From the NCBI RefSeq assembly GCF_030389965.1, contig NZ_CP128399.1, forward strand, positions 2,470,934 through 2,534,933: 64,000 nucleotides of DNA, read 5' to 3'. The translations under genes were made by a program, and so were the position numbers. Numbering within the stretch: the first letter of the stretch is position 1; each line of letters opens with the position of its first letter. Positions 39,832-41,270 of the stretch are shown in pieces. The notes under the pieces are model-generated. The model searched no databases, was not told the origin of the DNA, and was given only the letters and a program-made list of their open reading frames with translations. The stretch comes from Candidatus Chlorohelix allophototropha (GTDB taxonomy: Bacteria > Chloroflexota > Chloroflexia > Chloroheliales > Chloroheliaceae).

Positions 39832-40146
39832 ATGGGCATTCAAATTGCAGTTTTAACCGGCAAGCCGGAAGAAAAGAAAAAGGGCGGCGTCGGTATAATG
39901 CGACAAGCCGAGACTGAAAAGGAAGAAAAGCATCCTGAAGTTAGCCTGGCTGAGCTTGTCAGCAGTGTACTGGCACAGGTTGGAGCAGGAGTAAGCGTCG
40001 AAACCGAAGTAGAAATTGAAATTACCGGAGTAGTGGAATTCGCCGACAAAGATGGCAAAATTGGCGCTACCTTTGATATTGGCAATGAAACTCCCGGTAG
40101 CCGCGCAATGAAGCTGAAGCTGAAAAGCAAGGTAACCCCTAAGTAA
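39832..40146 (+). CDS. Small protein with Trypco2-like domain
   Basis: The 104-residue acidic/basic protein has a charged N-terminus (KPEEKKKGG, ETEKEEKHPE) followed by SLAELVSSVLAQVGAG, then alternating strand sequence (VETEVEIEITGVVEFADKD, IGATFDIGNE, AMKLKLKSKV). This helix-plus-strands order resembles the trypsin-co-occurring domain 2 reported in predicted conflict systems, though no trypsin-like gene is nearby. RBS AAGGAGC lies 12 bases before the ATG. It has its own promoter and terminator. Family assignment is by eye and uncertain. Confidence 0.5.
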   Translation: MGIQIAVLTGKPEEKKKGGVGIMRQAETEKEEKHPEVSLAELVSSVLAQVGAGVSVETEVEIEITGVVEFADKDGKIGATFDIGNETPGSRAMKLKLKSKVTPK

Positions 40147-40159
40147 TATAAATCGATGG

Positions 40160-40187
40160 CGGCAGGCTCGTTCCTGCCGTTTTTTTT
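40160..40187 (+). terminator. Rho-independent terminator
   Basis: CGGCAGG (40160-40166) pairs with CCTGCCG (40173-40179), followed by eight T residues. It isolates the Trypco2-like gene. Confidence 0.92.
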
Positions 40188-40236
40188 GTCCGCTTTCCCT
40201 ACGAGAAATAGGTCTAAAGTCCAATAAATTTCATGG

Positions 40237-40264
40237 TTGACAGTTTCTAATATCATGCTATATT
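40237..40264 (+). promoter_or_regulatory. Strong promoter upstream of the 109-residue protein gene
   Basis: TTGACA (40237-40242), 16 bases, TATATT (40259-40264), with an extended TGC before the -10. This is the best consensus match in the window. It would give a leader of about 140 bases that begins with the small hairpin GGTAGT-gta-ACTGCC (40277-40291). Confidence 0.8.
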
Positions 40265-40411
40265 TAATCGTGCAGAGGTAGTGTAACTGCCACTCAAAAG
40301 CATCACAATAGCAATTCCTGAAGGGTTGTTAACTCAAATTAAATAATTTGGGCACTCTTCAAAAACTATTTATCAATGGATTTTTTATGGCAAGACAGAA
40401 AGGAGCAGAAG

Positions 40412-40741
40412 ATGTCGAATTTAATACATTCAAATAGCATCTTCGCGACCCAACTGAATAGCCTGAACGGCAGCCGAATACGGCTCGGCAACGCAGGATT
40501 TGCGTACGCCGAAGTACGCGGCATTGCCATGCCTTCCATTGATAGTGGCACGCCATGCATCACCGCTGCGTTCAATGGCAAAGTAGGTGGGGGGACTCCG
40601 TCCTTCACACGGAAGCCGGGTAGCGATGGATTGCTAGGTAATAACGGATTAATTAACAAAAGCATATTCGATCATAACCCTTATCCAGTGGGGTTGTACC
40701 ATTCGCCGCAAACAGCATCAGGAGGAGGTACAACCAGCTAA
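40412..40741 (+). CDS. Uncharacterised Gly/Ser/Asn-rich small protein
   Basis: The 109-residue protein is rich in Gly, Ser and Asn and ends in TASGGGTTS. I recognise no family. Notable stretches are NGSRIRLGNAGFAYAEVRG, GKVGGGTPSFTRKPGSDG and a single Cys49. No signal peptide or membrane helix is seen. ATG 40412 follows AAGGAG and is preferred over an upstream in-frame ATG at 40376. Tandem TAA stops end it. A consensus promoter implies high expression. It precedes a multi-hairpin RNA region. A structural or peptide-precursor role is conceivable but unsupported. Confidence 0.65.
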   Translation: MSNLIHSNSIFATQLNSLNGSRIRLGNAGFAYAEVRGIAMPSIDSGTPCITAAFNGKVGGGTPSFTRKPGSDGLLGNNGLINKSIFDHNPYPVGLYHSPQTASGGGTTS

Positions 40742-40868
40742 TAAGCCGTAAGGCTGCTACCGGGAAATCCGGTAAAGCCAAAACACAGCTTAATAGATTT
40801 GTACTAACCTACAAATCTAAACACTGGTCGAGGGTGTAAGTTCCGAAAGGGAATTACACCTTTTTTGT
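40742..40868 (+). ncRNA. Putative structured RNA of four consecutive hairpins
   Basis: Between two small genes the plus strand folds locally four times: AGCC-gtaa-GGCT (40744-40755), ACCGG-gaaat-CCGGT (40759-40773), TAGATTTGT/ACAAATCTA (40794-40819) and the terminator stem (40833-40860). The first loop, GUAA, is a GNRA tetraloop. The density of perfect stems in 125 bases exceeds what a simple spacer shows. It could be a 3' UTR-derived small RNA or a regulatory leader. It matches no RNA family I know. Confidence 0.45.
40833..40866 (+). terminator. Terminator/attenuator between the 109- and 89-residue protein genes
   Basis: GGTGTAA (40833-40839) pairs with TTACACC (40854-40860) and TTCC with GGAA inside, followed by six T residues. 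With no clear promoter between it and the next gene, partial read-through may set the level of the downstream protein. Confidence 0.85.
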
Positions 40869-40904
40869 TTGCCAAAGATATCAAACACAGGAGAACATAT
40901 AACC

Positions 40905-41174
40905 ATGTTTGACAACGAGATAAATGAGTTAATGACTCAAACGATCATTGCCGACCGCACCTTCAATAACAAACGTGCGCTCAACCGTTTCTTGAAAACC
41001 CTTACTCCTGCGCAAATCGTCGAAACCCAGATAATGGTCGATGATGAGATGTTCGTGGTTTTCTTCCCGGTAAGCGCCACTTCTTCCGAGCGACACTTCG
41101 ATACCAACGAGGTAGCGGGTGCCGCTTCGGCAAAAACGCCAATGGTTCGCGCAAGGGTTGAAGTACCTATCTAG
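40905..41174 (+). CDS. Uncharacterised small protein
   Basis: The 89-residue soluble protein begins with an acidic helix region (DNEINELMTQTIIADRTF). An NKRALNRFLKTLTPAQIVE segment follows that could be helical, then a short strand-rich part (DDEMFVVFFPVSA), ending in RARVEVPI. No family is recognised. ATG at 40905 follows AGGAGAA; an earlier in-frame TTG at 40869 lies in the terminator T-tract and is rejected. It sits in the middle of the small-gene locus. Confidence 0.6.
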   Translation: MFDNEINELMTQTIIADRTFNNKRALNRFLKTLTPAQIVETQIMVDDEMFVVFFPVSATSSERHFDTNEVAGAASAKTPMVRARVEVPI

Positions 41175-41270
41175 GTCTTGTCACCCGATAGTTTGTAAGA
41201 AATAAGCAGTATTAGTGAAACAATAGGTAGTGTAGCAGTGTCAGATAAGAGCAGAGGAGATAAAAAACAT

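Follow-up and report, generated by a model that had tools for sequence, protein, structure and literature searches.

A candidate transcription attenuator, built partly from the end of a long open reading frame, precedes an orphan gene of the Chloroheliales

In transcriptional ON riboswitches, including the glycine and adenine types, the 3' strand of the closing helix is common to the terminator, and in type III toxin-antitoxin operons an RNA element and a terminator precede a small protein gene. Features of both layouts were recognized at a locus within a 64,000-nucleotide stretch of the Candidatus Chlorohelix allophototropha genome (the window; contig NZ_CP128399.1), where a promoter is followed by an open reading frame (ORF1), a structured RNA domain, an intrinsic terminator and a second small gene (ORF2). 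As in ON riboswitches, the 3' strand of the helix that closes this domain (P1) is common to the terminator; unlike in those riboswitches, a conserved core is absent, Rfam contains no match, and roughly one third of the domain lies in coding sequence. The order of RNA element, terminator and small protein gene is likewise that of type III toxin-antitoxin operons; unlike in those operons, tandem RNA repeats were not found in 40200-41200, nor did ORF2 of the window match a ToxN/AbiQ-type endoribonuclease in Pfam, NCBIfam, PHROG or PADLOC, as judged by sequence only.

A further comparison is with the uORF attenuator of Corynebacterium ilvB-II, which is reported to be a ribosome-mediated (leader-peptide) transcription attenuator (PMC10272879). 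The present locus resembles it in the succession of an upstream ORF, competing helices and an intrinsic terminator before the controlled gene, translation of ORF1 being predicted. It differs from leader-peptide attenuators such as ilvB-II in that ORF1 has 109-168 codons and lacks a consistent run of a single amino acid, and in that the antiterminator strand, which lies within the last part of the ORF, closes a domain of three arms, with an orphan as the controlled gene. An analysis of premature terminators has also revealed uncharacterised 5' attenuators (PMC2965389), which share with the present element a terminator and an alternative structure before one gene family and fast evolution; unlike them, the element described here overlaps an ORF of fixed position, and neither its lineage nor its gene family is named in that abstract or outline. 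The principle (transcription attenuation) is known, and what on our best reading would be new is a lineage-limited three-arm antiterminator whose 5' part consists of the final segment of an ORF that is long and tolerant of sequence change. The folding and comparative results that follow are best explained if the element attenuates transcription into ORF2 and, probably, responds to ribosomes as they cross ORF1; to attenuation we assign a probability of roughly 55%.

The layout of promoter, ORF1, RNA domain, terminator and ORF2 was present in 5/5 Chloroheliales genomes, namely the window and four relatives (RYN_336 isolate, G001; L227-5C, G002; 54-19, G003; isolate 14, G004), and was not found in the other genomes searched. 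Three genera are represented, the window belonging to one, L227-5C to another and the remaining three relatives to a single genus. In each relative a copy of ORF2 was preceded by an ORF with the Shine-Dalgarno sequence GAAAGGAGC, by a structured stretch containing GTCGAGGGTGT and by a hairpin with a T run. Coordinates of the features in the window are given in Table 1; start codons of ORF1 and ORF2 were picked from the position of the Shine-Dalgarno sequence.

Table 1. Positions of the features of the ORF1-ORF2 locus in the window.
Feature	Coordinates	Strand	Description	Basis
Promoter, extended -10 sigma-70-type	40237-40264	+	TTGACA, 16 nt, TATATT; 11/12 matches	
ORF1 Shine-Dalgarno region GAAAGGAGC	40398-40406	+	Second-longest invariant block in the five genomes	
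ORF1	40412-40741	+	109 codons in the window	
GAATAGC	40456-40462	+	Identical across the five genomes with --genafpair, the only one of three alignment modes to show this	
P1 5' strand	40677-40690	+	Inside ORF1; antiterminator part is 40677-40682	Inverted repeat, folding
Arm P2	40692-40735	+	Outer pairs 40692-40700/40727-40735; lies at the end of ORF1	Inverted repeat, folding, pair counts
Arm P3	40742-40792	+	Pairs 40742-40746/40788-40792, 40752-40755/40776-40779, 40758-40763/40769-40774; holds hairpin 2	Folding, pair counts
Hairpin 1	40744-40755		AGCC-GTAA-GGCT; 4 bp	
Hairpin 2	40759-40773		ACCGG-GAAAT-CCGGT	
Arm P4	40794-40819	+	Hairpin 3, 10 bp	Inverted repeat, folding, pair counts
Hairpin 3	40794-40819		TAGATTTGTA-CTAACC-TACAAATCTA; arm P4	Inverted repeat list
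P1 3' strand	40822-40835	+	Pairs with 40677-40690; 40830-40835 doubles as terminator 5' arm	Folding
Shared strand GTCGAGGGTGT	40827-40837	+	P1 and terminator; 11 nt, longest invariant block in the five transcripts	
Intrinsic terminator	40830-40866	+	Hairpin 4, core 40833-40860, T6	Sequence, folding, pair counts
Hairpin 4	40833-40860		GGTGTAAGTTCC-GAAA-GGGAATTACACC, then T6 at 40861-40866; terminator core	Inverted repeat list
ORF2	40905-41174	+	89 codons; Chloroheliales orphan protein	

The initial annotation of this DNA described four consecutive hairpins between the two small genes, ending in T6, and regarded them as more structure than a plain terminator needs. All four stems and the T run were indeed read from the sequence, hairpins 3 and 4 as inverted repeats with 100% and 83% complementarity, and the loop of hairpin 4 is GNRA-like, as is that of hairpin 1. 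The predicted fold of 40736-40870 had an energy of -46 kcal/mol compared with a shuffle mean of -28.2 (z -5.0, 0/200 shuffles as low), so that structure in this interval exceeds chance, and the conserved domain proved to be even larger than the interval first described. The inventory itself had to be revised. Thus, the conserved RNA is a closed domain of about 190 nt (40677-40866) in which helix P1 encloses arms P2, P3 and P4 and abuts the terminator, an anatomy obtained for each of the five elements folded alone (5/5). Helices P1 and P2, which reach into ORF1, had been overlooked, and hairpin 1 lies outside the minimum-energy fold because its GGCT pairs with AGCC at 40776-40779 in arm P3; hairpin 1 was therefore rejected as a functional fold and is regarded as a local alternative that competes with P3. 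The P1 5' strand and P2 are within ORF1 in 5/5 genomes. A large RNA spanning the whole of ORF1 was also considered and rejected, the middle of ORF1 being free of unusual structure.

Conservation of the domain across genera was evident from searches with a covariance model (R1) trained only on the three genomes of one genus, that is, without the window and without L227-5C. On 124 kb of sequence this model matched over its full length both the window element (32.5 bits, E 4.4e-7) and that of L227-5C, from the third genus (33.5 bits, E 2.3e-7); three weaker R1 matches were left out of the five-sequence alignment by a stricter cut-off. Compensatory change in the stems, which the initial annotation had proposed as a check, came out in favor of structure. 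Thus, in the alignment of the five elements, 92.9% of 322 cells were paired and 25/74 pairs showed two-sided compensatory changes, counts that rest on an alignment fitted to the structure and on five sequences from three genera; neither value was reached in 500 shuffles, and sliding the partners gave 2-6 two-sided pairs. In an unfitted MAFFT alignment 17/59 pairs were two-sided, but the total covariation term was unfavourable (+3.16 kcal/mol), which we read as the result of misaligned arms; here the structural case is at its weakest. Among the individual helices, the terminator had 11 pairs with 100% of cells paired and 5 pairs with two-sided changes in the five sequences, and P1 had only 1/7 pairs two-sided and contains a 2x2 mismatch in the window. 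The sequences of the arms diverge freely between genera with pairing retained, and the junctions are poorly conserved. A strict 37-letter pattern of the terminator matched in only 1/5 genomes because the loops vary, and the short pattern TCGAGGGYGT was rejected as a marker on its own, since it matches mostly background. In all three alignment modes the longest invariant block was GTCGAGGGTGT (11 nt), followed by the Shine-Dalgarno block (9 nt); invariance of the former is expected, as it is held by two partners.

The competition between these partners was examined by folding. When the 3' arm of the terminator was omitted, P1 extended with high probability into the foot of the terminator in 5/5 elements, and the extended P1 and the complete terminator are predicted to be mutually exclusive through their common strand (40830-40835). 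The predicted energies of these states lay within 2.7 kcal/mol in 5/5, the differences (extended P1 minus full terminator) being -0.8 (window), 0.7 (G001), 2.7 (G002), 2.3 (G003) and 2.3 (G004) kcal/mol. After randomisation of the initial 5 bases (7 for the window), 0, 19, 12, 15 and 10 of 300 sequences, in the same order, matched the observed balance. The four-pair extension (columns 1-4) was paired in 19/20 cells by manual count, and pairing is retained in the window with ACCC for ACTC. The antiterminator strand is identical in both other genera (ACTCTCGAC), and the five lineages are therefore not independent with regard to the antiterminator.

Both the terminator and the domain would also be conserved if the terminator were partial and unregulated, with ORF1 and ORF2 forming an ordinary operon of constant ratio and the domain protecting the 3' end of the message, a role that structured 3' ends often have. 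This explanation, which is unlikely although it deserves some weight, does not account for the fact that no invariant block is longer than the strand shared with P1, for the extension of P1 into the terminator foot in 5/5 elements or for the use of coding sequence. The near equality of the two states in predicted energy is likewise what a metabolite or ion riboswitch might display, since riboswitches are commonly laid out with a junction whose closing helix has one strand in common with the terminator, and P1 with P2, P3 and P4 could be an aptamer with a ligand-bound closing helix that breaks the terminator (ON switch). However, the Rfam covariance search suggested at the outset returned no family at the gathering score, nor any match at E<=5 for 40350-41000, the junctions are poorly kept, P2 is coding sequence, and ORF2 offers no hint of a ligand, so that a riboswitch appears very improbable.

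For transcription of ORF2, the position of promoters is of importance. On the + strand from 39600 to ORF2, nothing promoter-like was found apart from the strong extended -10 promoter before ORF1, and a similar one with 10-11/12 matches is located in the same place before ORF1 in the four relatives. The T run is 27-38 nt from the start of ORF2. Between P1 and ORF2, no promoter-like site was found on the + strand in the window or L227-5C and none was common to all five genomes; a weak 9/12 site lies within P4 of G003 and G004, and in G001 one site overlaps the start of ORF2. Since there is no shared promoter between the terminator and ORF2, expression of ORF2 most likely depends on read-through. 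An intrinsic terminator between promoter and controlled gene was present in the same order in 5/5 genomes, as seen from sequence alone. A small hairpin was also observed close to where the transcript is expected to begin (40271-40310 and the corresponding stretch in the relatives); it reads GGTAGT-GTA-ACTGCC in the window and, by eye, has other sequence with similar pairing in the relatives. Upstream of the promoter, the window encodes a 104-aa protein (39832-40187) that matched nothing in Pfam or PADLOC, followed by a strong terminator (40158-40181) close to the ORF1 promoter.

An open ORF1 occupies the same position in each of the five genomes, with 109, 168, 125, 168 and 168 codons (window, G001 to G004). 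When its middle was shuffled, 319, 53, 92, 42 and 33 of 2000 sequences were free of stop codons, compared with no stop in the five real sequences, and openness is therefore probably kept; in simulated random drift to 34-45% divergence, 121-320 of 2000 frames stayed open, which makes openness weak evidence for any single genome pair. Constraint on the middle of ORF1 was low, with dN/dS of 0.54-0.70 compared with 0.19-0.29 for ORF2 and 0.09-0.15 for the neighbouring gene fmt in three genomes of one genus, and in the same three genomes dS was 0.15-0.30 in the last 35 codons compared with 0.61-1.10 in the middle. An ordinary folded protein was rejected on the basis of low constraint and of an AlphaFold2 model of the G004 ORF1 with mean pLDDT 38, the latter being weak evidence since the alignment was shallow (five rows). 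ORF1 may instead encode a functional protein that is disordered or diversifying; we read it as a probably translated frame with an end held as RNA and a middle weakly held as protein. In 5/5 genomes the frame overlaps the switching helices and is kept open, its translation being predicted. No consistent enrichment in codons for one sensed amino acid was found in ORF1, glycine accounting for 14-16% in four genomes and 6% in the fifth. The invariant GAATAGC near the start of ORF1 showed no synonymous change across the five, and no pairing partner was found for it by eye.

The constrained synonymous sites at the end of ORF1, together with a compact, stable fold that ends in a terminator, would suit a 3'-derived small RNA, which had been offered in the initial annotation beside an attenuator: the domain of about 190 nt and the terminator would be cut from the ORF1 message and act in trans. 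Against this, the arms diverge freely between genera while their pairing persists, and the one extended invariant segment within the domain is already engaged by two helices, leaving no conserved free seed; we regard such an RNA as improbable. The other proposal, an attenuator that sets ORF2 relative to ORF1, stands as the best reading in view of the compensatory changes, the presence of terminator and antiterminator helix on one invariant strand, and the location of ORF2 a short distance after the element, where no promoter common to the five genomes was found.

On the attenuator reading, RNA polymerase would start at the promoter (40237-40264) and transcribe ORF1 and then the domain. Once made, GTCGAGGGTGT would pair with ORF1 bases 40677-40690 and so close P1 around P2, P3 and P4; with P1 closed, the foot of the terminator stem would be occupied and the terminator incomplete. 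The 3' arm of the terminator, when made in turn, could recapture 4-6 pairs and stop transcription. Extended P1 would thus correspond to read-through into ORF2 and the complete terminator to a stop. With less certainty, ribosomes finishing ORF1 may cover the P1 5' strand and arm P2 and tip the balance toward termination, and ORF2 would therefore be made when translation of ORF1 is low. The P1 5' strand ends 48-83 nt upstream of the ORF1 stop codon, and a lone ribosome at the stop codon therefore would not cover it; such a ribosome could exert an effect only by way of P2 or of the ribosomes behind it. An open, weakly constrained ORF1 would suit a frame with a translation that matters more than its product. 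A stronger version, which is possible but distinctly tentative, is that ORF1 is a leader of 110-170 codons with a product that hardly matters, open only so that arriving ribosomes melt the antiterminator domain, the element serving as a sensor of ribosome transit.

Residues ~12-57 of ORF2 gave a high-confidence model with the order beta-alpha-alpha-beta-beta. The window ORF2 matched no family in Pfam, NCBIfam, PHROG or PADLOC, a sequence search for solved relatives returned none, and a fold search gave no PDB match at Z >= 5 and none at E<=0.001, its matches being unspecific. That all five elements precede ORF2, modelled as a small beta-alpha-beta protein, could be accommodated by control through a protein, with ORF2 or another protein binding the domain and feeding back on its own read-through. 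Such control is highly improbable in view of the lack of a family match for the window ORF2, the unspecific fold comparison and a second ORF2 copy in L227-5C that is without the element. This second copy (L064:5995-6303; also L007, L027:10701-11009) retains ~30 nt upstream of its start and is without ORF1, RNA domain and terminator, the breakpoint lying at the T run.

The ORF1-ORF2 unit appears confined to this lineage. Thus, a single-sequence search with ORF2 (89 aa) was positive in 5/61 genomes, namely the window and four others of its family, and negative in the 56 further genomes; a profile search of 400 genomes of the phylum was positive in 1/400, the window's own, and no relatives were found in viral contigs. 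Single-sequence searches with ORF1 found no relatives in genome contigs, plasmids or 60 related genomes, and ORF1 was recovered in all five genomes only with a profile built from those five. The transcript had no DNA match in phages. RNA model R2 matched in 6/39 relatives at E<=1, the sixth (E 0.52) being read as chance, and under strict filters in 1/400 genomes of the phylum sample at E<=0.01. RNA model R1, applied to whole genomes under strict filters, missed the elements of the window and G002 and gave weak matches in three other genomes plus a second in G004 (E 0.1-0.8), which were read as chance. A dispersed repeat or mobile element was rejected, as this DNA occurs only once in its own genome save for a 25-nt chance match and the RNA model gives one element per Chloroheliales genome; an extra match (G002:C277) was a lone hairpin located between other genes and not a second element. 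Genes flanking the unit vary between genera (L062, L063, L065 and L066 compared with the window), with methylmalonyl-CoA mutase in the window and dehydrogenase, acetyltransferase and fmt-like genes in the relatives, as named by sequence resemblance; the unit therefore stays together while its neighbours change. In the open-access papers searched, the element was not described in titles or the beginnings of abstracts.

The finding places a structured RNA with no Rfam match in 5/5 genomes of the order that holds the Chloroflexota with a type I reaction centre, and its two-state anatomy leads to clear, testable predictions. If the element does respond to ribosomes, its leader ORF would be unusually long and sequence-tolerant for an attenuator, and the element would offer a first way to approach the two orphan genes that the lineage has kept throughout. 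Should the more tentative reading of ORF1 as a sensor of ribosome transit be true, general translation capacity rather than one amino acid would be read, and the orphan gene would be turned on when long translation fails.
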